Assembly: GCF_000002425.4 (NCBI RefSeq) | Contig: NC_037254.1 | Location: 11,869,429 to 11,933,428 of the forward strand | Reading direction: 5' to 3' | DNA length: 64,000 nt | DNA from: Physcomitrium patens | Taxonomy: Eukaryota; Streptophyta; Bryopsida; Funariales; Funariaceae | Shown here: positions 15,256 through 57,720 of the stretch, one piece after another | How the letters are laid out: each line of letters begins with the position of its first letter | How positions within the stretch are numbered: the first letter of the stretch is position 1 | Translations under genes and position numbers: made by a program | The notes under the pieces: generated by a model | Told to the model about the DNA's origin: nothing | The model's database searches: none | What the model saw: the letters and a program-made list of their open reading frames with translations, nothing else

Positions 15256-17939
15256 AGAACATACTTGCTGTTGTGACTGCTGCTGTTGCTGCTGTGGTGC
15301 CCCACCACGCCTACCACCAGCCCGCTGTCCTTGCTGTCCCTGGCTTAATGAAACATTTGGATAACCAATGTAGTTCGGGATCTGAGCCCCACCAGGCCTC
15401 ATAATTTGTGGCGGATAGCCGAATGCGGCAGGCTACACGAAACGAAATGTCAAATTGTTACTTTCTTCTCACTTTAAAAAAAATCATCATTTCACATCGA
15501 AATACAACCAAAACTAGAACAGAAAACACTCGAGGCGATAAAAAGCTCCGGAGACATTGTACCTGAAGAGGAATGGGTCCAGAAGGATGTTGTCCATAAT
15601 AAGGCATCTGAGGACCCAGGCCCGGACCAGGATGGTACATTGGAAGACTTGTTGGAACGGTAGGGCCAACAGGAGTTCGCATCTGTGCAAAGGCTGCCTG
15701 CAGAGCGCAACCAATTGTTCGTACCAATAATTTACGAACGTTAAATACAACTATACTAGACTACAAGGGGAAAAAAAGAAATATATATATATCAAGCTGT
15801 TCATACCCAGAACTACAAAGATGTCAAGTGTTACCCACGACCTTACAAAACCAATCAAATCCACTTACTTGCAATCGTACCCTCCTCTCCTCCTTGCGCT
15901 GTGCCAAGGCTACATAGAGAGGCTTGCTCCCCACCATCTTGGTATTCATTTCAGTAACCTGAAAATTACCATTTCCTTTCAAAATCAGAACATACTCGGT
16001 CTATACAATGATAATCATATTTTTTTGAATTCAGAGATAGAGAAGATGTCCAAGATAGTATCGGATCTTAAGGTAAGAAGATATAATTGCGCGAGTTCCG
16101 TGTTTAGCAATACCCGTGGGCAAGATGAAACTTTCTACTCAGAGTTATTTACCTTGTTGAAGAACTGATATAACCTTTGATTCCGTTAGAACAGAGCAAC
16201 AATTTAAGATGTGGATCACAATGCTCATATAAAACATACCGCGCGAGTTGCCTCCTCTGGTGTAGAAAATGCAACGAATCCAGAGCCTCTGCTCTGACCC
16301 TGGGGATCTTTCATCACCTGAGGCATATTTGCACACGAGAAGGAAAACATTCAGAATACAATCTTAACACGACCAGCAAGGTAGAAGATTAGAAAAACCA
16401 GTGCATAAGAGAAACAAACACTAGACTAGACAGAAAATCTGCATTTAACCAATCAACCTACCTTGCAAGACGTGATAGTTCCGTACTCAGCGAACAGCTC
16501 CCTCAACTTCTCATCATCGACGGCATCATCTAAATTCTTGAGGTAAAGATTTACTCCTTGGTACTTCTCAATCCTCGACTTACGTTCCTGCTCAAACTTC
16601 GCCCTAAGCTCAGCTTCCCGCTCTGATTTTTTCTGTGCTCTTCCGACATACCACTCTTTTTCATCCTGCTTTTTGCCATTCAAGGCCTCAACAGCCTTGG
16701 CAGCATCGTCAGCAAGCTCGAAATTAACAAAACCGAAGCACTTCGACTTGCCTTCGTTATCCCTCATGACCACAGCACTGCTTATGGGCCCGTAAGCACC
16801 AAATACCTTCTTAAGCTCATCATCGGTTGTGTTCTCTCCAAGATTCTTCACATAAACATTGTTGAACTTGGAAACTCCACCTGATAGATCCCTTTCTTGA
16901 CGGCGAACGAAAGGCCCAACAAAGACTTGTTTATCATTTAAAAGCATTCCGTTAACTTTCTCGATAGCACTCTGAGCTGATTCTTCTTTCTCAAACTGGA
17001 CAAACCCATAACCCTTGGACTGACCAGAACTGTCAGTTGCCACCTTGCACGATAGGATTCCACCAAACGCAGAGAACGTATCATGAAGAGCTTTGTTGTC
17101 AATAGCCTTGTCTAAATTCTGCAGTGCAAACCCACGCAAGACTAGTGAGAAACCTTTGAACATACCATATTCAATTAACATACATACAAAATGTGCAAAA
17201 GCAAAAGTTATACAGAAAAATTAGAGAAATTAAAAATTGAATATGAAAGAAAGAAAGAATTCCAAATAATTAAAAAGAAAAAAGAAGATTGCAGATTGCC
17301 GGATAATAATCATAACCTGCGTGGAGAATGCTCGCTCACCTTAATGAAAATATTTGCTGCGCCACTCTTACGAAGGCTAGGATCCCTATGTGAGAACATG
17401 ATACGAATCGGTTTCCCGTTCACAGGAGTAAAGTTGAGCAACTCCAAGGCACGAGTGGCTGTCAAACACCCATAACATATCAAAATAAAATCCTCCATGT
17501 AGGGAGGTTAAAGCTTAAACAAGACATGGTTCAACATACCAGCAGAGCTGGACAGATGTTTTCCAGCTCTTATCATGGATAGTTCAATAGAATCCTGTTA
17601 GCAATATTACACCAAAAAAAATATTTACAAAAAAAGATACACTAGCAAACATAACACAAATAAGTACCCTATTTAGATATCCGGAATGATAAACTCCGTA
17701 GGCTTACCATCTTGAGCACTGTGGTAGTTGACGTATGCATACCCCAAAGAGCGCCTGGTGATGAGATCACGGCAGACTCGGATCGACACGACTGGCCCAG
17801 TTTGACTAAATATCTCGTATAACTGAGCTTCAGATACATTGTGCTCCAAATCACCAACGTAGACAGAAGTGGAGACGAACTGATTAGGTGCAGGGCCCCC
17901 GACGGCTGCCTGCTGAACTTGAACCTGTGTCTGAGCCAT
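14453..17939 (-). CDS. Cytoplasmic poly(A)-binding protein (four RRMs plus MLLE)
   Basis: Binds the mRNA poly(A) tail, bridges it to eIF4G and governs translation and decay. Nine exons on the - strand: 17939-17708, 17458-17340, 17118-16462, 16317-16240, 15958-15869, 15697-15563, 15432-15265, 15052-14822 and 14686-14453. They total 1,944 nt, or 647 aa, in phase throughout; this is the usual plant PABP length. RRM1 has RNP2 VYVGDL (27-32) and RNP1 [10 protein letters not shown] (63-72). RRM2 has IFIKNL (114-119) and KGYGFVQF (152-159). RRM3 has VYVKNL (205-210) and KCFGFVNF (243-250). RRM4 has LYLKNL (308-313) and RGSGFVAF (346-353). A Pro/Gly/Gln-rich linker with a Q-run spans about 400-565. 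The MLLE peptide-binding domain, with [10 protein letters not shown] at 590-599, closes the protein. Intron 1 contains a candidate 55-nt cassette exon, and intron 7 has a T29 run after its donor. Start is the first ATG before the conserved RRM1. Confidence 0.97.
15223..15251. repeat. Poly(A) run on + (U29 in the PABP transcript), intron 7
   Basis: Twenty-nine consecutive A on the + strand, which read as a U tract in PABP pre-mRNA beginning about 13 nt after the exon 7 donor (CAA|GTATGT). Confidence 0.95.
17540..17594 (-). other. Candidate 55-nt poison cassette exon in PABP intron 1
   Basis: On the - strand this segment is bounded by an acceptor (CTAACAG) and a good donor (GTATGT). It would leave two normal-sized introns of 113 and 81 nt. 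Included, it puts a TGA in frame within four codons of the upstream junction and also shifts frame, so it could only act as an NMD-type exon. This is sequence inference; no transcript evidence is available here. Confidence 0.3.
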
Positions 17940-31983: not shown

Positions 31984-32478
31984 GTAAATGATTTCATAGT
32001 AAAAAAATATTTTAATTTTAATTTTAAAATATCCATTGATAGTATCAGTTTTAAATTTTGAAATTTGAAAAAAAATAGTATAATTTTAAATTTTTATATC
32101 AATCTCAGAAAATTCGTTTAAATAAAAGATAATATAATATTTAATATTGTACATGAAAAACATTGGTTTCAAAGATGTGTATAATCAACAATATAATACA
32201 TTTTATCCTAAATATTACAATGAAACAATGATTTAATTAACATTCTCTTTTATCCAATTTACATATTTTTTATCACATTTGTTTTAGATATGTAATCATT
32301 ATCAGCAAAAATTGAATTATTTGATACAACAAAGCAAAAATTTAAAAATCCACATCATCATTTTAAAATAATTAAGTAACACCGATGTAATGTATGATTA
32401 ATTATAAAAATCACTAGTGTGAAATCATACTATTGTCAATTATTTGTGTGTATATTTATGTATATATGTATATATATA
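31823..32478. other. AT-rich DNA between two TIR elements
   Basis: Noncoding AT-rich sequence with (TA)n tracts at 31823-31848, 31954-31982 and about 32460-32478; the last abuts the 1,259-bp element. Confidence 0.6.
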
Positions 32479-32780
32479 GGAGAATGCTAGAGTGACCCAG
32501 GTTTTTGTTAAATCGATCCACAGTCCCCGTTCCCCACGTTCCCAGCACCTCGTCCCCTGTTCCGACCTCCCCGTCCCCATTCTCGGCGCCCATCCCCTGT
32601 CCAGGGGCCTTTCGCGGGGCAGCTTCTGAACCTCGAAGTCCCGCAAGGCCACTATCAAACCGTATGCTGGCTTGGGGTATGCCTCTTGCCGCAAACTGTG
32701 AATTCAATTGAGCTAGTGTGCTTCTGAACTCTGTCAAATTTTCAAGAGTCTCGGGAATCGCGTCTGTGAGGTGGTGGTTT
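32479..32780. repeat. Left 302-bp inverted arm
   Basis: Reverse complement of 33436-33737 with a single visible difference. The outer part has repeated GGGAAC/GGGGAC-type motifs (on the complementary strand), and the inner part is an antisense copy of LRR coding sequence. Confidence 0.9.
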
Positions 32781-32788
32781 GTCTGTGA

Positions 32789-33560
32789 ATGGCGCCAACG
32801 AGGGTGATGATAATCGCCTTGTTGTTCATGTTTGCCCTTGCATCATTGTGTCCCCATGCCTCCGCCCAATCAAGCAAGACAGACTTGGAAGCGCTGCTTT
32901 ATTTTTAAGCAAGCATCACCAACTTCTCCCGGGAGATGCTCCCCAACTGGAACCCCTTGGCGTCCTCTCCATGCTCATGGGTAGGAATTACTTGCAACAG
33001 TCAAGTCACTAATGTTTCCATTTATGAAATCAGATTCACAGTCACCATCTCCGCCCGAAATCGGCAATTTGGTCAATCTGCAGAGCTTGTATATGGGCAA
33101 CTGCAATTTCAGCGGGCTTATTCAGGCGGAGCTTTCGAAATGCATTGCCCTGAAGTAGTTGGACCTGGGCGGGAAGGATTTTTCAGGAACTATCCCAAAA
33201 TCCTCATCACCTTGAACTTGCCCGACGTCGGGATCAATGGCTCCATTCTGACGTCCCTAGGAAACTGCACCAAGCTCGAGGTTCTTGATGTCGCCCTTCA
33301 ACGAGCTCAGTTGGCAACTTCCGGACTCACTGAAGCTCATGATTTCTCCAAGAATATGCTCCGTGGAGACGAGTTGACATGGAAGATTCTTGTGGCGCTT
33401 GGGACATCGTCAACTTGGCGAAGCTGAACATGAAAAAACCACCACCTCACAGACGCGATTCCCGAGACTCTTGAAAATTTGACAGAGTTCAGAAGCACAC
33501 TAGCTCAATTGAATTCACAGTTTGCGGCAAGAGGCATACCCCAAGCCAGCATACGGTTTG
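32789..33560 (+). pseudogene. LRR receptor-like kinase 5' fragment, broken, inside the TIR element
   Basis: It starts MAPTRVMIIALLFMFALASL, a clear signal peptide. An LRR N-terminal cap follows (TDLEALLYF, LPNWNPLASSPCSWVGITCN), then LRR units (PPEIGNLVNLQSLYMG, NCNFSGLIQAELSKCIAL, LDLGGKDFSGTIP). A further LRR runs across the right-arm boundary (HHLTDAIPETLENLTEFRS). This is the ectodomain start of a plant LRR-RLK of the EMS1/PSKR-like kind; transmembrane and kinase parts are absent. A stop follows codon 39, and several more stops and frame changes interrupt the LRRs, so no long receptor can be made. The donor gene is not in this window. It is most likely a captured copy carried by the element. 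Confidence 0.75.
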
Positions 33561-33737
33561 ATAGTGGCCTTGCGGGACTTCGAGGTTCAGAGGCTGCCCC
33601 GCGAAAGGCCCCTGGACAGGGGATGGGCGCCGAGAATGGGGACGGGGAGGTCGGAACAGGGGACGAGGTGCTGGGAACGTGGGGAACGGGGACTGTGGAT
33701 CGATTTAACAAAAACCTGGGTCACTCTAGCATTCTCC
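33436..33737. repeat. Right 302-bp inverted arm
   Basis: Partner of the left arm. On the + strand its first ~120 bp continue the LRR reading, and the remainder is the purine-rich terminal region ending in GCATTCTCC before TATATA. Confidence 0.9.
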
Positions 33738-34185
33738 TATATATATCATCAATAATTTTAGATTTGTAGAAAAGAAAGTAATTTTACGTATTGTTAATGT
33801 ACATAATATTGATATGAATAGTCATTGTATATATATATATATATATATATATGTAAATTCTATAACGCATTATTGACTTTTTTAATAATAAGAATGTGTT
33901 CCAGAACGTTAATAAAAGCAGCAAGCAAGTCCAATTTGAGTTTCAGGCTTAAAATATCAACTAATATATGCTAGGTACTACATATTTGTAGGTTATGTTC
34001 CAAGGTATTGTGCAACAAGTGAGTCATTATATTCACATTCATATACAATTAAATAAAAGTTATATAATTGTTTGCATGTGTATGGATGTACGTACATATG
34101 TACATATCCACACATGGTTTTTCAGAACAGTCTGATTGTATCAAATTAATACCTGGAAATATTTATGGTATTAATTTTGTATCTC

Positions 34186-41580: not shown

Positions 41581-42708
41581 CACATCAGAAGTCAACTACG
41601 CCCCAATGCTGAAGTCATACGTGGCACACAGAGATTGGTCCATCAAACAAACAACTCTCTCCTAGGCTCCCATTGGCAGCTACCCCCATCTAGCTGGACA
41701 AACGCAAATCCTACGTGGCATCCGCAGCTGATTGCGTAGCGAGAGCATGCAGCAACACTGTCTGTCAGTCAGTCCCCCACCACTGACCTTAACTCCCTCA
41801 ACCCCCCCCCTCAATAAATTATATATAAAAAATAAGAAAATAAAATCAGCAGTTAGCCCCATCAATCGGAAGGGGGGCAAGGCTGTGATGGCAGTGTGGC
41901 TTTTCTCAGGCAAGAAGTGAGGCCCCAATCGAGAGGTGAAAGCTAAGTGTGTGTGTGTGTGTGTTTTGCCACTGGAATTTAAAAGAACTCAAGGGAGATC
42001 ATGAAACTGGCTCTTCAATCCCGGCGAAGCGTGAAAACGAACAAACTCTCGCGGATATCCGCCCATTGGGACCCCACTACAAGGCAAGCATCAACAAACA
42101 CACACACACACAAATCTTCAGTCAAACTGGGAGAATCCCGGTCCAGAAATCCCCGGGGGTAGGGATGGGGGTGGGTGGAAGAGTCACAAATTTTGAATTC
42201 CATTGGGGAGGGAGGTAAAACTGAGAACTTTTTGTGGTGTTTCTCGTCGTCTGGGGTGAAGTCTCCGTCGTTGAGCGGCGTTGACAGCTGAGTGGGGGAC
42301 GAAGGGAGCAGAAAGGACGAGTGCGAGCGGCGGAGATGGTAGGACCCACAAATTGAAAGGCGAAGACGGAAACAATCGACATGGAATACAGGGAGCGGGG
42401 ACTACATAAGCCACAACCCTGCGCAGTCCACTCGTAGATTGTCAGTCAGGCTCTCTCATTGTCCTTTCTCTTCGCTTACGACTAAAATCGTGAGGATCCT
42501 GTCTTCTCTCAGGTTGTATGTTCCCTTTCAACTATCAGTGTGGGTTCGTCTTCGTTGTTGTTGTTGTTGTTGTTGTTACAGTGCAGCATTGTGATAGTGA
42601 GAGTGGGGACTTGGAAGATTGAATACATGTCTGTGTGAAGTGGAGGTTGCATATCTCCACACTTGAATCCCGTGAGGAGATTGAAGGAATTAGTTGAATC
42701 GCGCAGCA
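41581..42708 (+). promoter_or_regulatory. Promoter and 5' UTR of MAPKKK copy 1, with ABRE cores
   Basis: Two ACGTGGC motifs (41619-41625 and 41713-41719), the core of ABA-response elements, flank a CCCATTGG CCAAT-type box near 41667. A weak TATA-like CTACATAAG lies near 42400. The leader carries a (GTT)8-type run at about 42554-42578 and stops at the ATG at 42709. The last 30 nt (from 42679) belong to the block shared with copy 2; sequence before that does not. Confidence 0.45.
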
Positions 42709-43883
42709 ATGGCCAGCTGTGGTGGTCGTGGCGCGAGGTCGTGGATTCGCGGCAACCTCATTGGTGCCGGGACGTTTGGGACGGTGAACCTGGCGGTGAA
42801 CCGCGAGGACGGGGAAGTGTTTGCGGTGAAATCAGTGCGGGTGGAGCAGGGTAGGATGGACGGCGCGGCGCAGCCTTCATTGGAGGCGCTGGAGAATGAG
42901 ATTGAGATTCTGCAGAGTCTGGAGTCGAAGTATGTGGTGAGGTGTCTGGGGAGTGATTGGACTGAGGAGGGCGGGAAGGTAATGCGCAATGCGTACTTGG
43001 AGTACATGCCGGAGGGATGCCTGACAGATTTTCTGAAGCAGTTCGCGGGGGCGGAGGCGCCCCTGGATGAGCATTTGATCCGGACGTACACGCGGAGCAT
43101 TGTGCAGGGGATAGACTACTTGCACAGGCAGGGAATCGTGCACTGCGACATCAAGGGGAAGAACATTTTGGTGGGCAACGGGAACGTGAAGCTGACGGAC
43201 TTCGGATCCGCGAAGAGGGTCGGCGTCGGGGGCGAGGGGAAGGTGGACGGCGGGGAGTCGTCGGCGTTCGCGAAGGTGAACGGGACTCCGCTGTGGATGG
43301 CGCCGGAGGTGGTGCGGCAGGACGAGCAGGGATTGGCATCGGACATCTGGTCGCTGGGGTGCACGGTGGTGGAGATGGCGACGGGGAAGGCGCCATGGAG
43401 CGATCTGCCGAACCCGTATGTGGCGCTGTTCCAGATTGGGTGCACGGAGGGGATTCCGGCGGTGCCGGCGAGCCTGAGCGCGGAGGCACACGATTTTTTG
43501 GGGCACTGCTTTCAGAGGGATCCTCGGATGCGGTGGACGAGCAGTCAGTTGCTGGAGCATCCATTTCTGACGACCCGGCACGTACCTCGGGCGATGGTGG
43601 TGAAGGAAGAGGAGGAGGGTGTTGTGAGAGCGGAGTCTCCTGGGAGCGTGCTGGAGAACAACGGGCGGTCAGCGAGCAGCGGGTTTTCATCGGTGTTCAG
43701 GAGGTCGGTGCCAATTCTGACAATGCCGTCATTTTTGAAGCGGGGGCTGGTGAGGGAAGCGAAGGAGGAGGAGACGGGAGGGAGTCGGGGATGCAGTGGG
43801 TTTTCGAGCTCTCAGTTCGAGATGCCAATGGAGGGAGAGTGGATCGTGGTGCGGTCGCCATTGGCGTCTCCGCGATCAGCTGA
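42679..43883. repeat. 1,205-bp inverted duplicate block, copy 1
   Basis: Matches 55528-56732 in opposite orientation. Equal length and identical translations in the kinase frame and several overlapping other frames imply essentially 100% nucleotide identity. Both edges are abrupt: 30 nt before the ATG and after codon 391. Confidence 0.92.
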
Positions 43884-44670
43884 TCCCACGCATCATGATT
43901 GTGCAGTGTTACCGATCACCGCTGCGGTTGAGGAAATTTTATTGTCGATCAAAGATGAAATTGACTCAGCTGTGCAGTCACATGATAGTAATGCAGTGAA
44001 ATCAACTTGCTCTACAGATTTTCCTCTGGACCAATGCCAATGTGTTGGGAGCATTGAACCAGAATTGGCTGAGCGTCATGGCGTCGAGGAAATGAATGTA
44101 ACATCGAGCTGTGTTAGGAGTTGTACAGAAGATTGCGATGAAGAAATGTGTTGGAGGGATGACTCTGAGGAAGTTTCTCGGAGTTGTATATATGGGTCAG
44201 GAGTACATGAAGACGCTTGTTCCGTTATGAATTTGGAATCCGACGTGGAAGTGGTAGACAATGTGCCGAGTGCATCAGCGGAAGATGGCGGTGATGTGCC
44301 CAGACTACCATTGTTGAGAGCGTCTGTGATTGAGTGTCAGGAATGTGATGTGAAGTCAAGGTTTTCCTATGTATTTCCGCAAATGAACTCGGTGCATTTT
44401 GGAATCTCTGTGATGGAGTTTACTAGTTCCAATTTGGATGTTACAGTGCAGAAGTCACTGTTTTTGTGGCATAGCTCGGATGGGGGCTATGGTCACGAGT
44501 GGATTGAGAGGTGGGACTGGAGCAATGTATATATGAACAATGTGAATATAGGAAAAACTGTCTCTTGGAAGTTTTGTATAGTGTTTCTACATTGCAATAA
44601 AAGCTTCGTACTGAAGAAGATATGGAACATACTGTGCCTCTCTTGGTTTCTTCTTTATTGCTTGGGTTAA
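42709..44670 (+). CDS. MAPKKK (MEKK-type, group A MAPKKK17/18-like), copy 1
   Basis: Serine/threonine MAP kinase kinase kinase that would phosphorylate a MAP kinase kinase. Intronless, 653 aa; ATG at 42709 is the first in frame. The kinase domain is about residues 12-287: glycine loop LIGAGTFGTV, ATP lysine K41, HCDIKGKN with catalytic D147 and N152, DFG 164-166, and the MEKK signature GTPLWMAPEV at 192-201. D212 (SDIWSLG) and R275 are also in place, so it should be active. A Ser/Glu-rich linker leads into a poorly conserved tail of about 260 residues ending in a hydrophobic stretch (WNILCLSWFLLYCLG). Residues 1-391 are identical to copy 2 at 54615-56702 (- strand), and the rest is strongly diverged. 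Arabidopsis members with this intronless architecture act in ABA/stress signalling through MKK3; that role is inferred here from family and promoter motifs. Confidence 0.93.
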   Translation: MASCGGRGARSWIRGNLIGAGTFGTVNLAVNREDGEVFAVKSVRVEQGRMDGAAQPSLEALENEIEILQSLESKYVVRCLGSDWTEEGGKVMRNAYLEYMPEGCLTDFLKQFAGAEAPLDEHLIRTYTRSIVQGIDYLHRQGIVHCDIKGKNILVGNGNVKLTDFGSAKRVGVGGEGKVDGGESSAFAKVNGTPLWMAPEVVRQDEQGLASDIWSLGCTVVEMATGKAPWSDLPNPYVALFQIGCTEGIPAVPASLSAEAHDFLGHCFQRDPRMRWTSSQLLEHPFLTTRHVPRAMVVKEEEEGVVRAESPGSVLENNGRSASSGFSSVFRRSVPILTMPSFLKRGLVREAKEEETGGSRGCSGFSSSQFEMPMEGEWIVVRSPLASPRSADPTHHDCAVLPITAAVEEILLSIKDEIDSAVQSHDSNAVKSTCSTDFPLDQCQCVGSIEPELAERHGVEEMNVTSSCVRSCTEDCDEEMCWRDDSEEVSRSCIYGSGVHEDACSVMNLESDVEVVDNVPSASAEDGGDVPRLPLLRASVIECQECDVKSRFSYVFPQMNSVHFGISVMEFTSSNLDVTVQKSLFLWHSSDGGYGHEWIERWDWSNVYMNNVNIGKTVSWKFCIVFLHCNKSFVLKKIWNILCLSWFLLYCLG

Positions 44671-46960
44671 GTGTGGTTATTTGCCTGATTAACTTTCATG
44701 AATTCGAACTTAGAGATTTGGTGACCTCTCTATTGCCTTGAAAATATCACAATGTACACAATGTATTGTGCATGAGGAAACAGTCTCTTCACTGAGGAGA
44801 GTGTGCACCAGTTGTGTTTGTTTTCCTTCCGTCTTGTATCCGCATCGGTGAGGCCCAGGCTGTTGGACATTGAGGTCGTTGGGTGTGCGCGCAACATCGA
44901 TGAAACAAGAATGGAGAAATGATTCAACTCGAGCAACTTTGATTCCACATCACGAATACCTCACATATGCATACCTGGTAAATGGAGTATGGCGACCATT
45001 TCATGTCCATGACATGGACCCAAACCCACAATCCAATGTGTCGGTGTGGGTTTTTATGTTGTGGTGTGTTGCAATTAGATCTACTAAACCACACCCTACG
45101 TTGCAACTTGCAAAAAAACATCTCGATTTACACTCGTTCGTTAAGTCCCTTCGAGGTGAATGAAGCTCCGTCCTCTCCACTGAAGGAACTGCACTGTTCT
45201 CCATCATTTGGGTGCTTTCGACGTTCTAGCCAAGTTTTCAGAGACGAGCTGAAACACGCAGTTCCAGCACATCCTAGCAAGGAAATGGAGCAATGTTTCA
45301 TCACTACGTCCTTTTCAAGAGCAATCCACAGGTTCAGCTTTTGGTGGAACCAGTTACTCGCGACTAGAAATTGGCTCCATCCGCATTCATCTTCCAACCC
45401 TCGCTCACCACGCCTTGGTGTAGATTTTTCTCAAATAAGACGATCAGGACATCCGCCCAATGTATTTGTGTTTTCACAGCCCTTGTTCCAAAACCTTCAA
45501 CGAAGACTGAGCAGCTTGGGCACAATCGGATGGCCTCGACGACACAAAGGAACCCAAATCCAAAGTCGAACATGGGTGGGTGGAAAACGAAGGTCTGAAA
45601 GGACATCGCAATGGCAATTAGCATATCCAATGACGAGAAACCCCTGAAAATGGGTTTTTGTCGTGGTAGATAAAAAGGGTAAACAGAGCCCTCTTCACAT
45701 GCTCCAGACTGCAGGAAGCTCCTACATTCGCTCACCTCGAAAAGCCATCGCTGCGGTGGTTAATGATTTCATCAAGAGTGAGGCGTCATTTGTTCCGACG
45801 GATGCGCTTTAACCCATCCTCATGACACGTTCAACTTCGTTCCCAATTCCCCCTTTCCAAAGCTGGGTAACATGGTCGAATCCATCAACAAGCCTGAACG
45901 AACCGGCGACCTCCAAAGATAGATGTGAAAAAATAATGGGTCCGGCGTCGTTGAGTCCTCGCTCCTCATCTTGATAGGTTATAAGCCGTCGCCTCCTCGT
46001 CTCCGTGGAAAGAACATCCACACAGTCACTCTCGGGCCCGCTGATTCGATAGAATTCACATGGCTCAATTCATTTGCTGCTGCTCCAAGCGAATTCCCAA
46101 CAACTTTGCGTGTGTTTTTATTTAATTACTTATTTATTTGGTTTTTTTCTCGGATTCCATCTTTCGCTACAAAGTGCATCTGTCTTGTCAAGGACCCTTT
46201 AAAAAGCACTATTGCACTTGGAGTTGATTCATTGGAACATGCCCTCGCCACTCTGCTCGCCTCTCCACCCGTGACTGAAGTCAACCGTTTGTTATCCTAA
46301 TAATGCTGATTTTCCTGCCACGCGTTAGAATGAACTCATGACATGAAGCTCCGAAGCCCGAAATGGAATTGTTCCGAACAACAAAAACAACAAAGTACAC
46401 CACAACTGCACAGAATCCAACAAACCCACACCTCATCGTTAAACATTAACCCTGCATGCAATGATATTTGCAGCATGACTGAGCGTTTTTTGTTTGTTTG
46501 TTTGTTTGTCTCAACGACTCACTAGAATCACACATCAGACGCCGAAGCACCTCGAATGTCGAGATACTGGGTCGTATGCAGTATGCACCTTCATGCAAAT
46601 CAGAGACCATGGTCAACGCGTGTCATAAGATTCGAACTAGTTCGCCTCGACACCGATTTTGCGAGATCACGCTCAACATTCACATGGCTAAACTCCACAA
46701 GGCAACTCATATCAAATTTATCCCAAGAGGATTTAGTTAATTCCCTGCGTGCTATTCACTATTATGGGCTTTGTTTATCCCTTAACCTCATGTATACTCC
46801 GCATGCTTCAGCTGAGCTTAATTACTCTTCCCCTCAAAACAGTGTGTGTGTTGGTGTTTACGAGGAACTTAATCCGCGACCCAACTGTAGGTATTGTGCG
46901 TCAGAAAACTGGTGGTTTTTTTTTTGATTTTTTTGATTTTTTTGCATTGGCAGTGAAATA
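44671..46960. other. Downstream region of MAPKKK copy 1, no recognised gene
   Basis: Contains a 221-codon ORF (44982-45647, +) and an overlapping 123-codon ORF (45364-45735, -). Neither shows a domain I know, and both are Ser/Arg- or Cys-rich in a way that overlapping frames explain. It may hold the kinase 3' UTR at its left end. Confidence 0.35.
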
Positions 46961-47915
46961 GGCAGAGACAATGTTAATGGTGGTTGACCTCTAGTGTCCA
47001 GGTCCACCGGGTTTATGCACGAAATCAACAACTTTAATGAGGAAGAAGTGCAGTGAAGGAGTGTGATTAGATGGTGCCATTGATAATTCTACACAGCCAG
47101 GCACATAAACAGATTCTGGGTGCAGGGATCAATCAAAACATGAAGATGAAGAAGGGGTGGGTCTAGTGTGTGTCAGAAAATGTGAAAGTCTTTCAGGTTT
47201 CAATGAGGTATATGAATAAATGCAGAATGTGGGGGGTTAATTGTAAAGTTAAAGTGACATCTAAAATTGCGCCGCCTTCAAAACGCTGTAATTTATAAAT
47301 ATTCAAAAATTATAAACGGTCAGAACTAATTATTCATTTTGAAAAGATTTTGATTCGAAACCAATTAAGTTGCTGCCCAAAAAGTTATTCTTCCATGTGG
47401 ATGTAGAAATTAGGGGAAAAAAAATGCACAAAATCTAATTATACAAAAATTATAGCTTTATAATTTCTATAATCATGAACTAAAAAGACATGTTTTATAA
47501 ATTTGGTAAAGTTTGGTGATGATGCTAGAACAAATAGCAACCTTAAAGTTGATGTTCAAAGTAGATTTGACAATCTAAAGATTTTAATCTTACATCTAAA
47601 CAATAAGAGATGTTCAATCAAATTTTGGTTTACTTTAGAAAACTAATTCCTTCTTAAAACAAAACAATACATGTTGGAAAAGATAAAGATGCTACACCAA
47701 CATGCTAGGAGGTTCTAAAAAGGGCATTACAGTGGTAAAAAGTAAAAATTTAAAAAAAAACAAAAAAATCATTGGAAAAATAAATATTCAAAATTTATGA
47801 CCAAATGTTTGACATATTTTTAATTGAAGAAAATATCAAAATACTATTTTTATACTTGTAAATTTACAATTTTAAGATAATTCAAAATTTGATGGATATT
47901 GCAATTCTAAAACTT

Positions 47916-47955
<40 letters not shown>

Positions 47956-48640
47956 CATATACACACACACATACATACATCATAATATTCTGGTTATATC
48001 ATTATTTTAAATTGGATATAATTCAATATCTAAAACTTTCTCTTCTAATATTATGAGACTTTACAAACAATTATTATGACAAGAAAAAAGTATTAAGAAT
48101 TAATCTTAAAATAAACTAACCTCTATTATAAAACTAATTATATATATATATATATATTCAAATTAAAAATTAGGTATGATTTCCTTGTATTAATGAAAAG
48201 ACTAATTAGTTGTGCAAATTTTTTTATCATCAAAGGTTAGAGCATCTTTCTATCTTAAAGCAAATAAATAATGAACATTTAGGGGACGTCAAACCCTAGA
48301 AATCCACTTTGAAAGCCTGTAGCTCAAAAGTCTTATTAAAGTCATTTACTTAGTGAAGGAAAGCCATTTGTTTTTAAGAGCCTTGGACTTTTGATATAAT
48401 ATGAAGTAACTAAAAACCATGATATGGACAAAATCATTATTTTATTATAAGTTCAAATATGTAGGTTGATATCTTAATTTAAACAATTATGAGAAGTACA
48501 TCATATATGTATATATGTATATTAATGGTTATTTTAAGTATGTTGTTGAGATGGTTTTTCAATTTTTTTTGAAAACCACTTCTTTGAAATTGGCCTAATG
48601 GAACTTCTAAAAAACAATAGTATTTATGCAATATCTGAAC

Positions 48641-48673
<33 letters not shown>

Positions 48674-48849
48674 TTCATCTCATTCTTCTCTCTTAGGGCA
48701 TTTTGCCCTGTTTATTTTTTAAATCTAAAGAAAATCAAAGGAGGCTTCTTAATTTCAACCAATCAAAACATTTAAAATTTAAGGTCTTTTATCTTGTCCT
48801 ATAAGTATAAAATATCCCTTGTATTTTGGGAATATTAAGATAAATAAAA
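46961..48849. other. AT-rich intergenic DNA
   Basis: Noncoding. (TA)n tracts lie at 47919-47951, about 48140-48157 and about 48641-48662. No gene seen. Confidence 0.6.
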
Positions 48850-49027
48850 AGAATTTTTAAATCAACTAAGGTTTTCACTAAATCAATCCACCCATCCTAA
48901 CTATTGTCAAGAATTCTCCACTGTTTTATCTGCACTGGTTGAAAACCAACAAAAAATAGTTGGATCCACAACCAATGATAGTGGGTGGGTTGATTTAGTG
49001 AATGCATGGATCAATTTAACAGTTCCC
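48850..49027. mobile_element. MITE copy D (178 bp) with 9-bp target duplication
   Basis: Inverted ends: left CACTAAATCAATCCACCCA, right (reverse-complemented) CACTAAATCAACCCACCCA, each preceded outwardly by a TTAAAT block (GGGAACTGTTAAATTGATCC on the right). Flanked by exact direct repeats TAAATAAAA at 48841-48849 and 49028-49036. The interior aligns with copies A and E. No coding capacity. Confidence 0.8.
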
Positions 49028-49838
49028 TAAATAAAATAGATTTTTTTTTTTTTAAAGAGTCAACTATGGTTGGAAGAATACAAACACTGTTAAAATCTTC
49101 ATGTAAAAAATTAATTGTTTGAACATAAATTTTCAAAAAATTCTGGTTTTTAATATAATATCTATCTATCTATCTATCTATCTATATATATATATTAATT
49201 GTTTGAATATAAATAATCATATAGTTATAAAATAAGATTTTGTACATTATGATATCTTGTGCACAGAGATAGTTATGACATTAATGAACATTCACAAAAA
49301 TTGACACCAAACATGATTAATAAATCACAAAAGATAAAACTGTTTCCTTATTTAATTGAATACATATCAAACTACCAAGTTTAGAATGTGAGTAGTCAAG
49401 TCAAACCTGAATCATACAATGTGGATTTTGATCCATACAACCAAGTGCATGATGAAATTAGATTCATTGTCATCAAATGCATACATGTGTGATCAAATCT
49501 GTACAATTTCAAAAATTATAAAACATAGATAAGATTTGATATCATACGAACTGTGATTTAGTTATTACACTTATTTCTCTCTGCCAATAGAATAATATGT
49601 GAATGTATCTTATTTATTTTATTTTATTTTATTTATGTTTCCAATGCCACAAATATCATTAGAAATATTTGTGATGACAGAGATTTTACTTGTTTCGTAG
49701 CTAAATATAAAAAAATTGAAACTAATGAAATCTACTTGAAATAGAAGGACAAAACTAAATCTTCAAACTCAATATTAAGTTTTATTAAGATTTAAAATTC
49801 GTAATTTAATTTAAAGGAATCGTAATTAATAATAAAAA
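49028..49838. other. AT-rich intergenic DNA
   Basis: Noncoding, with a (CTAT)n(TA)n tract at about 49160-49194. No gene seen. Confidence 0.6.
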
Positions 49839-49884
49839 GTGGCCATAAAACACTCTCTTTTTTTCCCCTCATCTTTCTTCCACT

Positions 49885-50070
49885 GTTCGAACGTGGGAGC
49901 CACTTGTCACCTGCCACGTGGACATCTAACCCAACCACTGACCACAATTTCGTGGAAATTGACTCCTTTTACGTGGCAGCCAGTTAGCCGCACCACCTTA
50001 CTGGTTACGTGGCGCACTCCCATTCGCCAGCTCATATACTCGTGATGACGTGGTCACACCACGTGGCATC
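49885..50070. promoter_or_regulatory. ABRE/G-box cluster
   Basis: Six ACGTG cores in about 175 bp: at 49891, 49916 (GCCACGTGGA), 49971 (TACGTGGC), 50007 (TACGTGGC), 50048 (GACGTGGT) and 50061 (CCACGTGGC). The last two form an inverted pair ACGTGG-TCACA-CCACGT. The segment is a GC-richer island in AT-rich DNA, with TATA-like CATATACT at about 50032. ABRE multiplicity is known to confer ABA and dehydration response. The gene it would serve is not recognised. Confidence 0.6.
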
Positions 50071-50700
50071 TAAAAGCAATCATTATTTTATTATTTTAAA
50101 AAAGGTACTCTCAATGTACCCTTCAGTTGTGAAGTGTGGTAGCCTTATCCAATAGCCCCAACAGAATTTAGGGTTAGGGTTTCAAGGGGTCCTTCTTCCG
50201 AGTCAACAAAATCCAAACTGGGGAAAGTTGTTTGGATTCAGTTGTTGTTGTGGTTGATGGGAGGAGGGGGGGGGGGGCACTTGATACACAACTGCTACAA
50301 AGAAATGGAGGCCCCAGAGATCCAGAAATTTTGATTTGATTTCATTTCATTTCCACTGGGGATTGGATTTTACGAAGATTCATGTTTGAATGAGATTGAA
50401 TCCTAATTAGGGTTTTGTGTAAGTTTTGGGGTGTTGGTGTTTTCTTGTGCATCGGGTAACATAGATTGGATTATGTGGGGCTCCAAAGCATGGCCTTAAT
50501 GGGGCTGTGAGTCATAGTGAAAAATTCTCTGGGTCACTCACTCCACAGTTCAAAACTGATTGCATATTTTTAACAAGAAACTGAAACCATAAAGACTGGG
50601 GGAGTGCAAGTAGGTTTGGGCTTTTATGGATTGGAAGAAAATATTTAGGGAGGAGGTAAGATTGTGCAATTTTTTGAAATCTTTTTTTTTGGGTTAACTG
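50071..50700. other. Possible transcribed leader downstream of the ABRE cluster
   Basis: Contains a telo-box-like GGGTTAGGGTTT near 50170, a G-run at about 50265-50277 and a 9-codon ORF starting MEAPEIQKF near 50305. No long ORF or conserved domain was found, so it could be a noncoding transcript or the first exon of an unrecognised gene. Confidence 0.25.
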
Positions 50701-51761
50701 TTGCATTTACCAGCACAATAGTTGTTTGATTCAATGATCAAACATCATACACATTAAATAATAAATTTCTTTTAGACATGTTGTAATGCAAAAAAAATAA
50801 AAATAAAAATAAGACACACACACAGAAATAATAAGTACATCATCTTAATTGACATAAATTATAAATTTATAAAAATTTAAATGAGACATAAAAACTATAA
50901 CTATATCTATTTTTTGTTTTAAAAGTTGGATCTTCTTGCTCTAAATGTAGTAGAAATAAAGGTAGAGTTGGTCCATTAAGTATTGTTCTAATAAATCTAA
51001 TTTGAGATGCTTCAAGCAAATCACTTTGTAAATAGAATATTATAATAAGTTGTACTTGTTAGAAAAATATTTTAAAATTTATCTAAATACTGTCAAATTT
51101 CTTTAAAAGAACATTTTTTATATGAATAGATGTTATTACACTTCTCTGACGATTTGTAATAAAAAACATTACTTGAGTTGGTAGAAATGTTGCATAAACT
51201 TTTACCAATTACACTTTATAGTAAAATATTTGATAATGACTTGTGCCATGCACAAAAGAACTAAAGTATCTTAAACCAAACCTAGAATATAAAAAGGGTG
51301 TTGGCAAGATTAAAGATGACCTTAATCTTCCCTACATAACATAATAGTTAATAAAAAAGCCATGTACAAACTTTCTAAAGACTATAAAATTTGTGAGCCA
51401 CATATTCAAGTCATAAGATGTTTCTTTTGTAGTTTTTTAAGTGTTCCCAAATTCCTCAAAATTGTTTTTGGCAATATGGTGCATCTAAAGATACTTATAG
51501 ATCCAACTATGTTCAAAAAGGTTCTTTGATGTCTCTTAACAATGATATTATTAATTTAAAATAATTTTATTTATTCCATTTTATTTTTTTATTTTTATTA
51601 TCTTAAATAAAAACAAGAATATATTAAAAAATTCTATTTTCTTAGGACTTTAAAGTGGATTTATAAAATAAAAATCAACTAATACTTTAAGGATTATATT
51701 ATGTGTTATAAATTTAGATGATTTTATGTATTATATGTTGTAGAATAATAAATAGCTTTTT

Positions 51762-51800
<39 letters not shown>

Positions 51801-52229
51801 CAAAAACATTATTTGATAAATGATAATACAAATCATGATTAAAGTGATGAAAAAATCATTTGCTTAAAGAACGAAGGCCTATTGATAATAAATCTAAAAA
51901 AAAAAATTTATTTTTTAAAAAGAAATTGGAATGCCAAATTTATTAATAATTTAATTAAAATTTACTTAAGAAAAAATATGAAAAATTATATATTTATTAA
52001 TATATATGTATTAATTAAATAATTAATCAATTTTTAAAATTGATGTTGTTGTGGATGTAAAGATTTCTAAATACAACATTTAAAAATTTAAAAGTGAGAT
52101 CAAATATTCTAGTTAATATTGTAAAAATTAAAAATAAATAAAAAAATTTACATACTTTAAAATGAATATTTTCTTTGTTTTATAATTTTCTTTACCAAAT
52201 CATGTTTTATATATGGAATTGTTTCTTTG
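50701..52229. other. AT-rich intergenic DNA
   Basis: Noncoding, with (TA)n at 51765-51797. No gene or element ends recognised. Confidence 0.6.
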
Positions 52230-52850
52230 TGTACTGTAGAATAGGTAAATAAACTTTGTGGTAAGTTACTAGTTGGTTATTGATAACCTTGAGAATTAGA
52301 CTGATGGTTAGGCAGTTTAGTTGGTAACAGTAGGTTGTTAGTGGAATAAATGGTTAAGAATTCAAAGGGTTATAATCTTTGGAATCTCTTGGCCGACAGT
52401 CCATCTTTTGGTAGGATAAAGAAGTTGAGGAAAGGGAGATCGAGGCCAAACTGTGATAATCGTAAGCCGAGGCAAGGTTGGTGCTACCTCTTTTTGTTTC
52501 TTTGTTATTGACGAGTAATGGATAGTTTCTGAATACTGAGAAGTTAGTCTGGAGTGCCAAACTATGAGAGTTGTAAGCCGAGATATTGAATTCTATGTGA
52601 TGAATTGAAAAACTGAATACAATAGATAAGCTAGAGATCAGTAATTGAATAAATATAAACCACAAAGAGAGTAAGTTGGAGATGGACGGATAAGAATATG
52701 GAAGTATTGTTGAATTGATAGTCGTAGAATGGATTATGGGTTGAATTAAGACAGAAGTAGTAAGCCTTGGCGTTTTGTAGTTTGATAATTGATTTTAGAT
52801 AGTGAGAGTACAGTCAATTGTGACACTAACAAATCCAATTCATATTACTA
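52230..52850. other. Purine-rich island, possible decayed mobile-element fragment
   Basis: About 600 bp with clearly higher GC and purine content than its flanks. It carries an internal diverged direct repeat (GCCAAACTGTGATAATCGTA at 52445 and GCCAAACTATGAGAGTTGTA at 52556, each followed by AGCCGAG). It lacks a long coding frame. A solo-LTR-like or noncoding origin is possible but unproven. Confidence 0.25.
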
Positions 52851-53280
52851 GTCTTTCCCCGTGTTCAAACCCACCTCTATTAGTTCAATTGCTTTGGTAT
52901 ATTGAGGCTTGAATACAATGAAAACAACATGTACACATCAAACAAAACTAGAGTATATTATTATTATCTTAACATATATAGAATATAACATTTGGCTCAC
53001 ATTGACTAAGTTTAGTATATGGTATATGATAATTTAATAAGAAATATATAGCATTGTATATATATTTTTAATGGAAAAAGAAATGTGGTTGGAAATAAAA
53101 ATCAAATAGTTGGAGTAGATTCAATAAAGATTCTATAAAACTATGGACTATTATCAAAATTTTGTAGGTTGTAGACAAAAATATGATCAAAATAAAGAAA
53201 AAGACAATCCATCCTTTCTTTTTACATACACAAATATAAAACATGAACTCACAATATAAAGTTTAAAGAACCTTTTTTCG
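52851..53280. other. AT-rich intergenic DNA
   Basis: Noncoding AT-rich stretch; nothing recognised. Confidence 0.5.
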
Positions 53281-54614
53281 CCCTGGCTTGAAGAGAACGT
53301 GATTCCAAAGATGGGTTCCCATGTTCCTGAACATCTTAAGAGGCGCCGCGAATTGGTCACGTCACGGCGCGTTGCGTCGCGTCGCGTCACGGCACGGCAA
53401 AGGGCGTCACAACACGTCAGGGCGATGTGAGGGCGCTGTGAGGGCGGCGTCGCGTGCAAGGGTGAGAGGAGGGAGGAGAGGGAAGAACGCCGCAAAAGGA
53501 GAGGAAATGAGAGGAGATAAGGAGGAGGGGAATATGATGTAAAGACTGTGTGTGACTAGAAAGAGAAAGGAAGGTTGTTGTAGGATAAGGACAAACTGAA
53601 CGCAAAAAAGAAAGATAGAAAAAATAGACTATTACATACATGGCTACGATTTAACTGCTTTCGCCCGTTCGCACGCTTCGGGCAGCACGGTGAGAGGATC
53701 TGCCGATTCCTTCGTTTCGACCTTTCACCCAGTTTGAATCCTCGGAGCGAATTTGGGAGAATTCATTTCCTTTTCTGCCGTTTGAGCTCCGGTCGCTGCA
53801 TGCGAGGATTGAGCTAATCGGGTAGCGAGGAGACACTCTATCGGCTCCTCTCCTGAACGTCGCTGTGGAAAGCACTCCATAAGGCGAGCTCACCACATGA
53901 TTCGGAGCACTCCTCTCGGGTACGGAGCAATCGGGGGATAGTCACCCAAACACTGTTTCGTGGGGCCGTCACTCTCGCGGCGGAGCTTTTTGTTCCGAGC
54001 CAATGCGATGCAGCCTAGACGCGAGTGCAGATCCGGCCACTCTTGCAAGCACTGGCTCTACCGCTTTTTACCCTGGCCAAATAGTAGAGAGAATTGCTCC
54101 CTCCAATGGCCGGCGTCAGGAGACATCCGTCCCAGGGTGGATTCATTGGTACGCGTCACCCAAAGTCACTGTAAAGGCACCTCTTCCTTGGGTCACGACG
54201 ACGAATGGGGTGACTCCTAGGAATAAGATTTCACCGACCCCGTAGTCCTGCACTCGAAAAAGCGAGCTAGGAAAAAGGACGCATTTGATGTAATGATGCA
54301 AGTTGATTTGTTTGAATATAAAATTACGGAGCGCGTTTCACTGGACCTGCTCGTTGTGTGCTCATAGCTGGCGTTACTAGTGTGCATCTTGAAGCCAGGG
54401 AGGGACCACGCCATGTGCATATTTCGGTCAATGGATAGTTTTGTGATATCTCCCGCATAGTATGCGACCCATTAAAGGATCATGTAACAGAATTTGAGCT
54501 TGCAGAAGATGGCTGCAGGTCAAACAAAATGTTCAACTCGTCACAGGCATGACGGAATGGGTCGTTATCGACTTCGAGCAGAAGGAAGTGATGTGGTTTC
54601 GTAAAAGCAAAAAC
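53281..54614. other. GC-rich island and 3' flank of MAPKKK copy 2
   Basis: Opens with CG-dense repeats (GTCGCGTCGCGTCACGGC-type, about 53355-53460). An 80-codon ORF at 54003-54245 (+) has coherent composition (FYPGQIVERIAP, VPGWIHWYASPKVTVKAP) but no family I recognise. The right part probably contains the copy 2 3' UTR on the - strand. Confidence 0.35.
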
Positions 54615-56702
54615 CTAACAGATAGGGGCGACGTGTGACACGTAAGCGACCGGAGTACTTCTGATGTTCAATGACCAAGTGACCCTAACCAGTAGGAGGA
54701 AGATAATCCCTTCAACACTGAAATCACACATCCAGTTGTGAGACACGAAAATGAATAAATAAATGTTATATGATCTACACCAAATGTCACAAACAAACGC
54801 ATTCACGGATGCACAAGCTCCATCACACACCGGAAGTACCGTCAACATATTTCCCAGAACTTTGCGTCCATTATATCGTCGTAACACTGTACACAGGCTC
54901 CTAAGACCGCCGCTTCCCATATTCACATCACTTTTATCTACATTGCTCCACTCCCGCCCCCGCCTACACTTGTGATCATCAGCCCCATCCAGCCCAAGCC
55001 ATATTAACAGTGCCTTGAGCATAAACTCTCCCGAAATGGGATGAGCAAAAAACCTCGACATGGACATTCCAGGACGATCAGACTCTACTTGAAGCACAAA
55101 CGGCAAAAACCCTACTTTCAAACTACCTACTCCATGCTCAATCTCGGATGTCGTGACCGGTGGTCGCGAAGTAAATGAGGTCACCTCGTTCCCTACCAGT
55201 TCAACACCGGATCTGAAATTCGTTCGGAAAGGAGCATTTACATTCTCTTCCGACTGAAGTTTTGTACATAGACCCATAGAGCTTTGTGTTGCATCACCCC
55301 GGGCGGGGCAATCCAGCCCCGCTCCCTCTGCCACGAAGCTGCTGATACACTGCTCCAAAGAGCAAAAGCTGCCGCTATTCGACCTCAATTCATTTACACA
55401 TTTCTCCAACACCGACTCCTTATCCTCTGGGCTGCTCGACGCCACTTTAACATCAGTGTCACGCCTGACCACTTCCTCTTCCTCTTCAGCAGTAGTCGAC
55501 AACACTGTACGATCATGATGCGCGGGCTCAGCTGATCGCGGAGACGCCAATGGCGACCGCACCACGATCCACTCTCCCTCCATTGGCATCTCGAACTGAG
55601 AGCTCGAAAACCCACTGCATCCCCGACTCCCTCCCGTCTCCTCCTCCTTCGCTTCCCTCACCAGCCCCCGCTTCAAAAATGACGGCATTGTCAGAATTGG
55701 CACCGACCTCCTGAACACCGATGAAAACCCGCTGCTCGCTGACCGCCCGTTGTTCTCCAGCACGCTCCCAGGAGACTCCGCTCTCACAACACCCTCCTCC
55801 TCTTCCTTCACCACCATCGCCCGAGGTACGTGCCGGGTCGTCAGAAATGGATGCTCCAGCAACTGACTGCTCGTCCACCGCATCCGAGGATCCCTCTGAA
55901 AGCAGTGCCCCAAAAAATCGTGTGCCTCCGCGCTCAGGCTCGCCGGCACCGCCGGAATCCCCTCCGTGCACCCAATCTGGAACAGCGCCACATACGGGTT
56001 CGGCAGATCGCTCCATGGCGCCTTCCCCGTCGCCATCTCCACCACCGTGCACCCCAGCGACCAGATGTCCGATGCCAATCCCTGCTCGTCCTGCCGCACC
56101 ACCTCCGGCGCCATCCACAGCGGAGTCCCGTTCACCTTCGCGAACGCCGACGACTCCCCGCCGTCCACCTTCCCCTCGCCCCCGACGCCGACCCTCTTCG
56201 CGGATCCGAAGTCCGTCAGCTTCACGTTCCCGTTGCCCACCAAAATGTTCTTCCCCTTGATGTCGCAGTGCACGATTCCCTGCCTGTGCAAGTAGTCTAT
56301 CCCCTGCACAATGCTCCGCGTGTACGTCCGGATCAAATGCTCATCCAGGGGCGCCTCCGCCCCCGCGAACTGCTTCAGAAAATCTGTCAGGCATCCCTCC
56401 GGCATGTACTCCAAGTACGCATTGCGCATTACCTTCCCGCCCTCCTCAGTCCAATCACTCCCCAGACACCTCACCACATACTTCGACTCCAGACTCTGCA
56501 GAATCTCAATCTCATTCTCCAGCGCCTCCAATGAAGGCTGCGCCGCGCCGTCCATCCTACCCTGCTCCACCCGCACTGATTTCACCGCAAACACTTCCCC
56601 GTCCTCGCGGTTCACCGCCAGGTTCACCGTCCCAAACGTCCCGGCACCAATGAGGTTGCCGCGAATCCACGACCTCGCGCCACGACCACCACAGCTGGCC
56701 AT
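54615..56702 (-). CDS. MAPKKK (MEKK-type, group A MAPKKK17/18-like), copy 2
   Basis: Second intronless MAP kinase kinase kinase, 695 aa, oriented towards copy 1. ATG at 56702 corresponds exactly to the copy 1 start. Residues 1-391 are identical to copy 1, so all catalytic residues are present (K41, D147, N152, DFG 164-166, GTPLWMAPEV 192-201) and the enzyme should be active. The tail differs. After PLASPRSA it reads EPAHHDRTVLS with a Glu run, then regions only weakly alignable to copy 1 (SLEQCISSF, KALLIWLGLDG, EWSNVDKSDVNMGS). It is about 42 residues longer and ends in a hydrophobic segment (GIIFLLLVRVTWSLNI) plus a short polar end. The conserved skeleton of the tails shows that the genes are older paralogues, while the identical front half looks recently homogenised. 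Tail function is unknown. Confidence 0.92.
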   Translation of the reverse strand: MASCGGRGARSWIRGNLIGAGTFGTVNLAVNREDGEVFAVKSVRVEQGRMDGAAQPSLEALENEIEILQSLESKYVVRCLGSDWTEEGGKVMRNAYLEYMPEGCLTDFLKQFAGAEAPLDEHLIRTYTRSIVQGIDYLHRQGIVHCDIKGKNILVGNGNVKLTDFGSAKRVGVGGEGKVDGGESSAFAKVNGTPLWMAPEVVRQDEQGLASDIWSLGCTVVEMATGKAPWSDLPNPYVALFQIGCTEGIPAVPASLSAEAHDFLGHCFQRDPRMRWTSSQLLEHPFLTTRHVPRAMVVKEEEEGVVRAESPGSVLENNGRSASSGFSSVFRRSVPILTMPSFLKRGLVREAKEEETGGSRGCSGFSSSQFEMPMEGEWIVVRSPLASPRSAEPAHHDRTVLSTTAEEEEEVVRRDTDVKVASSSPEDKESVLEKCVNELRSNSGSFCSLEQCISSFVAEGAGLDCPARGDATQSSMGLCTKLQSEENVNAPFRTNFRSGVELVGNEVTSFTSRPPVTTSEIEHGVGSLKVGFLPFVLQVESDRPGMSMSRFFAHPISGEFMLKALLIWLGLDGADDHKCRRGREWSNVDKSDVNMGSGGLRSLCTVLRRYNGRKVLGNMLTVLPVCDGACASVNAFVCDIWCRSYNIYLFIFVSHNWMCDFSVEGIIFLLLVRVTWSLNIRSTPVAYVSHVAPIC

Positions 56703-56732
56703 TGCTGCGCGATTCAACTAATTCCTTCAATC
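55528..56732. repeat. 1,205-bp inverted duplicate block, copy 2
   Basis: Partner of 42679-43883. The upstream edge lies 30 nt before the ATG, where leaders become unrelated, and the downstream edge lies within the CDS after codon 391. Confidence 0.92.
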
Positions 56733-57720
56733 CACCACCCGCTGGCCAAGAGTGGAAGCGGATGAGGTGCACCTCATAAAAACATAACACGCTGATTCGA
56801 CACTTCAAACGCTACTCGCGAAAATCCTATGGTCTCTCAGAAACGAAATCACAAGAAACGCAGATGAGCAATACTGCGTTTGTGCGGTTGAGTTGTGGCT
56901 GAGGCAGAGCGCAGGAGTGAGAGCTTATTGCAGGTTTGCCACTCTAAGCCAGAAGTCTCCCGCAGCTTATGTATCGTCCGCCTGAAATCTGATTCTATGG
57001 CAGAGCCTGGTAGCGCCCACCCTGCGCTGCTGCTCTTTTAGGATTGAATAAAAATTATTATCCTGATTGCATTGAATACGAGCACCAGAGCTTGTCCGCG
57101 GGGCCCAGCTCGCTCGCTCTCGGCTCGGACCCTGCAACTGCAGGCAGCCCGCGTGCTCCGCTTCACTTTTCCCCCGCCTCTCCCGCTCCAGCACCTTTTT
57201 AGCTACGATCCCCAGGTCTCCTTCTTCGTCGTCGTTGTCGTCGTCGTCAAATTCCTGCTTCGTCTTCACCACAATCACGAAACAATACCCCTCGAATTCA
57301 CACACACACTGCAGAGTTAATTACTATCCACTCACCCAGTATTATCATCAGTTTTATTATTAGTAGTATTAGTAATATTATCCAGCAACGGTGAGGCTGC
57401 GTGGTTGCCTCAAAGCGAGCGCGAGAGAGGAGAGTGGTAAGATATCCCACAATCACGATCACCCACCTCCACCTCCAACTCCACCACTATCAGCACCACC
57501 AGTTATCACGTGGATCCGATTCACCTGCCTCCGACCTACCTCGGTCCTCGCCACCCCAGTACACCTCTCTTCCGCCTTATCATCTTACCCACTCTCTCGC
57601 CGATCTAGGGTTTTTATTTTTGTTTCGTTGGGCTATGTGTGGTCTTTTTCATTTCGTTTTCTGTTTGTTTCTTTGTAATGGGTTTTGAACGGATTTCTGT
57701 TTCAGCACTTATTCCATTTG
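56733..57720 (-). promoter_or_regulatory. 5' UTR and promoter of MAPKKK copy 2
   Basis: Unrelated to the copy 1 leader. It includes a 14-bp palindrome TGAGGTGCACCTCA at about 56763-56776, a (GTC)n-type run near 57230-57250 and a single CACGTGG at 57507-57513. Overlapping ORFs at 57391-57688 (+) are low-complexity Pro/Ser frames and not credible genes. Confidence 0.4.

Follow-up and report, generated by a model that had tools for sequence, protein, structure and literature searches.

In the moss Physcomitrella, concerted evolution of tandemly arrayed genes has been suggested from their high similarity (PMC3045890, citing Lang 2008). The Culex vitellogenin genes CpVg2a and CpVg2b, which are arranged tail-to-tail and have different promoters, are described as partly homogenised by gene conversion (PMC2875236), and in the palindrome arms of sex chromosomes intrachromosomal conversion keeps inverted copies alike (PMC3403216). 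In the current study, we analyzed a stretch of 64,000 nucleotides of the Physcomitrium patens genome (hereafter the window, on contig C2), in which two convergent genes, A and B, encode putative mitogen-activated protein kinase kinase kinases (MAPKKKs) with identical front halves and diverged C-terminal tails. As far as the available parts of these sources describe them, the Physcomitrella tandem genes resemble this pair in that neighbouring paralogues of the same moss are unusually similar and gene conversion was proposed, the Culex genes in their tail-to-tail arrangement, distinct promoters and partial homogenisation, and the palindromes in being inverted copies kept alike on one chromosome. 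Recurrent gene conversion between the neighbours, as opposed to a recent duplication, very probably explains the identical heads of A and B.

Results

Base-by-base comparison of the two inverted blocks shared by A and B (Table 1) gave 1205 matches in 1205 bases, a length that by itself excludes chance. The block extends from -30 to +1175 relative to the ATG, comprising 391 codons and 2 bases and thus ending inside codon 392. An earlier note on this DNA had claimed that the blocks were essentially identical, that identity ran from 30 nt before the ATG to after codon 391 and that it stopped abruptly, all of which was borne out. When a forced alignment was divided into 100-base bins, 11 of the 11 bins wholly inside the block were free of mismatches, as compared to 52/100 mismatches in the nearest bins wholly outside it, on either side. 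Divergence is immediate on the 5' side, while the 3' side has a small shoulder of 27 nt. The blocks are separated by 11,644 bp, and the 5' flanks of the two genes (-700 to -100) have no detectable mutual likeness. The note had also equated the block with exactly the catalytic domain and a linker; the domain does lie inside it, but the match is not exact, since the block takes in ~104 further residues and the 30 nt upstream of the ATG. It ends directly after a WIVVRSP motif that is also present in three dispersed relatives.

Among the solved relatives of gene A, the highest scores belong to proteins named MAPKKK2 and MAPKKK5. Both A and B contain GTPLWMAPEV, which fits the signature G(T/S)Px(W/Y/F)MAPEV given for MEKK-subfamily MAPKKKs in the accessible part of PMC3991747. 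By domain and signature, A and B are assigned to the MEKK subfamily, and they are predicted to phosphorylate MAPKKs. Presumably they are close to MAPKKK17-20.

A search of the genome (470 Mb in 101 contigs) with the block returned seven places, namely the two window copies, two copies on contig C1 (genes P and Q) and the three dispersed relatives (on C19, C22, and C18). Identity to the window block was 79% for the C1 copies and 69-71% for the dispersed relatives; in blastn pieces, the C1 and C2 blocks were 84% identical over ~890 nt and 81% over a further 172. The C1 copies are likewise paired in convergent orientation. Their blocks lie 8.0 kb apart and are identical to one another at 1197 of 1198 bases, the single difference being an amino-acid change. 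Read on the sequences, the C1 block begins ~8 nt upstream of the window block and ends ~40 nt downstream of it (13 nt if the shoulder is counted), and the tracts of both pairs take in 25-30 nt before the ATG. One convergent pair is thus found on each of C1 and C2 with gene number and order unchanged, which fits conversion and not unequal crossing over.

Inside the blocks, paralogues within a locus (A with B, P with Q) are more alike than counterparts between loci (79-84%), and the quartet tree of the heads is AB|PQ, with both alternatives rejected (approximately unbiased test, ~1e-62). Outside the blocks, segment-wise comparison gave A-Q and B-P as the best pairings in the mid-tail and the 3' flank, and in the 5' flank the B-P pairing was clear and the A-Q pairing weak. 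In agreement with the B-P pairing, the one conserved stretch on which C1/C2 synteny is based, a neighbouring sequence with weak likeness to DPAGT1/ALG7, is located to the side of B in C2 and, flipped, to the side of P in C1. Because the pairings outside the blocks conflict with those inside, the comparison supports the view that both gene types predate the C1/C2 duplication and that each pair has been homogenised since. Taken alone, the maximum-likelihood tree of the tails gives weak support to the A-Q/B-P grouping. The first blastn hits had pointed to an A-P/B-Q pairing of the tails, which together with the flipped synteny would suggest an inversion between the arms; segment-wise comparison reversed that pairing, and the A-Q and B-P pairings imply no net inversion between arms.

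Silent sites within the pairs are identical, with differences at 0/279 and 0/272 sites (pooled 0/551). With both pairs pooled, silent divergence inside a pair is at most ~0.0054 (95% upper bound), which amounts to 1.1% of that between the chromosomes, where the heads have a synonymous divergence (dS) of 0.50 and a non-synonymous divergence (dN) of 0.13. In the tails, dN is 0.61-0.75 and dS 0.8-1.4 over six pairings, values that come from noisy alignments. By these figures, the head is under purifying selection and the tails evolve almost freely. Since two pairs both stand at essentially zero silent divergence, conversion appears to be recurrent, one coincidental event being unlikely. The second pair, the head quartet and the silent sites support what the earlier note had proposed, gene conversion inside older paralogues, and the pairings outside the block and the unlike 5' flanks of A and B agree with its statement that tails and promoters are distinct.

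Table 1. Features of the two MAPKKK genes in the window (positions are those of the window).
Feature	Position	Strand	Remarks
Homogenised block, copy A	42679..43883	+	30 nt before the ATG, 391 codons and 2 bases; 1205/1205 vs. copy B
Homogenised block, copy B	55528..56732	-	1205/1205 vs. copy A
Gene A, MEKK-type MAPKKK, single open frame, 653 aa	42709..44670	+	Pfam kinase and MEKK signature
Gene B, MEKK-type MAPKKK, single open frame, 695 aa	54615..56702	-	Pfam kinase and MEKK signature
Kinase domain of A, residues 15-287	42751..43569	+	Pfam PF00069
Kinase domain of B, residues 15-287	55842..56660	-	Pfam PF00069
3' shoulder, copy A, 27 nt, 4 mismatches	43884..43910	+	Read as decayed tract end
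3' shoulder, copy B	55501..55527	-	Base-by-base comparison
Diverged C-terminal tail of A	43884..44670	+	Closest to tail of C1 gene Q
Diverged C-terminal tail of B	54615..55527	-	Closest to tail of C1 gene P
5' flank of A (-700 to -100)	42009..42608	+	Weak likeness to Q; none detectable to B
5' flank of B (-700 to -100)	56803..57402	-	Like 5' flank of C1 gene P

Three further pairs of neighbouring kinase genes, chosen for their equal scores and hence not a random sample, were compared. On C23, an inverted, convergent pair (C23:12399001-12416500) is exactly identical over 2317 bp; both ends of this block fall within the stretches read, which include only 52 bases past its 3' end. An inverted repeat on C18 (C18:54447-64316), ~55 kb from the contig start, has arms of at least 3688 bp with 3 differences and carries two convergent MAPKKK-like genes. 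The C11 pair is direct, with its members 40 kb apart (regions C11:3716711 and C11:3757096), and matches exactly over 1787 bp, a block that begins 99 nt into the frame (codon 34) and extends to ~300 nt beyond the stop. Codons 1-33 differ, and one N-terminus matches a C7 relative at 31/36 residues vs. 26/36 for its neighbour, four of those residues lying inside the block. The C11 pair is thus a mirror image of the window case, with an identical core and a diverged N-terminus. By eye, we take the C11 and C23 proteins to be CDPK-like.

Among kinase, light-harvesting, and chalcone-synthase genes, equal-scoring neighbours within 100 kb were in opposite orientation in 22 cases and in the same orientation in 7 (binomial p 0.008), but the contrast with unequal-scoring neighbours (8 opposite, 6 same) was not significant (Fisher p 0.29). 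This count is exploratory: it used 69/85, 26/46, and 44/68 of the rows listed, since many low-scoring kinases were excluded together with fragments and secondary exon matches; the pairs on C1 and C2 were labelled equal by hand, and an equal model score serves as a proxy for identity. A cluster at C2:24.5-24.8 Mb contains light-harvesting genes and chalcone-synthase genes of equal score, which are found together several times and in both orientations.

Base composition also changes at the tract edge. Over codons 1-391, the C1 and C2 pairs have a GC content at third codon positions (GC3) of 0.78-0.82, vs. 0.59-0.65 in the three dispersed relatives, and for the tails the values are 0.43-0.49 vs. 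0.39-0.43. In 40-codon windows at the tract end, GC3 passes from 0.75-0.82 to 0.40-0.50 in the pairs, and from 0.53-0.72 to 0.45-0.60 in the relatives. At 84 fourfold sites, 67 are G or C in A and 77 in P, as compared to 52, 48, and 44 in the relatives (Fisher p 0.017 to 1e-8). The few shared changes that precede the C1/C2 split comprise 4 AT-to-GC and 0 GC-to-AT. The GC3 step hints at GC-biased conversion, which would have acted mostly before the C1/C2 split. Counting against it, the later changes are mixed, and the C18 pair (0.545) shows no GC excess over its C21 relative (0.603), so that GC-biased conversion is unsupported as a general rule.

Elsewhere in the window, a 1.28-kb stretch at 32466-33749 has inverted ends of 315 bp that are 99.4% identical, and its interior resembles, by eye, the start of a leucine-rich-repeat receptor kinase. 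Its end has 28 further matches in the genome, mostly partial, and the stretch is perhaps a gene-capturing DNA transposon, the class being a guess. An open frame of 242 aa at 16453-17181 on the minus strand has three RRM matches.

Discussion

Given the identical blocks, the conflict of histories inside and outside them and the parallel second pair observed here, the following sequence of events is very probable. An ancestral local duplication would have produced two convergent MAPKKK genes, of types A and B, and the whole region would afterwards have been duplicated, most likely in a moss whole-genome duplication, so that one pair came to lie on C2 and one on C1. Homologous repair between the neighbours would then have repeatedly copied the front of one gene onto the other, from ~30 nt before the ATG to just past the WIVVRSP motif, leaving the order of the genes with no net change. 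By then the promoters, C-terminal tails, and 3' flanks had presumably become too unlike to pair and kept their own older history; as A and B already differed in promoter and tail before C1 and C2 split, conversion would have been confined to the stretch that still matched. Most simply, the near-coincident edges of the two pairs would have been inherited and would reflect a passive limit of homology, with no special signal, selection having probably kept the kinase head convertible while the fast tail dropped out (dN ~0.63 vs. 0.13 in the head, between chromosomes). Having one core with two tails may also be of active benefit.

Several other explanations were considered. Within the window alone, the block could pass for newly inserted sequence, the flanks on either side being unlike, as if a 1.2-kb piece had recently been duplicated and one front half copied beside an unrelated tail to give a chimeric gene. 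However, such an origin requires that a partial duplication happened twice, independently, and with edges at the same places; we rejected it on the C1 pair and the silent sites, and it is nearly excluded. Near-identical inverted copies are hard to assemble, and their identity is known from the assembly alone, so one copy might have been overwritten by the other during assembly or polishing. Yet the two copies have unlike flanks, the pattern recurs at a second locus whose block differs by 16-21% from that of the window, the C1 copies retain one difference, and the step at one base is from about half of the bases differing to zero, not from 99% to 100% identity. An artefact of this kind could at most have removed a few last differences, and there is very little chance that it accounts for the blocks. 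Strong selection on the protein heads, with no copying of DNA, would agree with the conservation of the head relative to the tails, but it is refuted by the identity of the silent sites within the pairs, which differ at a dS of 0.50 between them, and the tracts include bases before the ATG; its probability is negligible.

The arrangement of the arms would also suit a switch, in which a crossover between them inverts the 11.6-kb spacer, the promoters alternate between the tails of A and B, and the identity of the arms is a by-product. A crossover of inverted arms would exchange the tails between the promoters, and arms of 1.2 kb with full identity would probably make a good substrate. On the other hand, the outer 5' flanks and the inner tails pair alike (in the 5' flank, clearly for B-P and weakly for A-Q), so that the net number of inversions fixed after C1 and C2 split is even, although this parity argument is weak, as agreement is expected half the time. 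A single arrangement is seen in the single assembly, and we regard such a switch as highly unlikely.

The C1 pair, the pairs on C11, C23, and C18 and the rough orientation count lead to a broader reading than recurrent conversion at this locus. It is possible, although we hold this tentatively and consider it somewhat doubtful, that neighbouring paralogues of this moss, mostly in opposite orientation, are under a standing regime in which their conserved cores have been recopied over tens of millions of years while ends and promoters diversify. Each pair would then amount to one kinase core with two regulatory ends, carrying nearly fixed edges through the duplication of its region.

Partial, long-lasting concerted evolution is usually inferred from the comparison of species, and a duplicated pair in one genome offers an internal replicate with nearly the same tract edges. 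Physcomitrium patens is haploid for most of its life, is transformable and has efficient homologous recombination, traits that should make the rate of conversion, the choice of partner and the cause of the edges directly measurable. Approximately 1.2 kb of each gene is indistinguishable from its neighbour's, and gene heads of this kind mislead gene trees, knock-out design, and expression counts.

A literature search covering titles and abstract openings found no description of this MAPKKK pair, the genome papers (Rensing 2008; Lang 2008) lying outside it, and the available parts of PMC3729371, PMC4030171, and PMC2277409 held nothing decisive. The process is known, and the present case is an unusually clean instance of it with an internal replicate. 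A and B share with plant MEKK-subfamily MAPKKKs a kinase domain near the N-terminus and the G(T/S)Px(W/Y/F)MAPEV signature, a likeness drawn from these two features, and they differ in their fast-evolving C-terminal tails. Measured against what the accessible parts of the sources report, CpVg2a and CpVg2b are 98.4% identical overall, whereas the window pair is 100% identical over the front half and has tails that can hardly be aligned. Unlike the arms of sex-chromosome palindromes, the arms in the window consist of half a gene and lie 11.6 kb apart, and nothing in the analysis, which included no test aimed at this, links them to a sex chromosome. In contrast to the tandem genes described from Physcomitrella, the window pair keeps an older history in its tails and flanks, is homogenised in the front half only, and has a duplicated counterpart in which the process acts separately.
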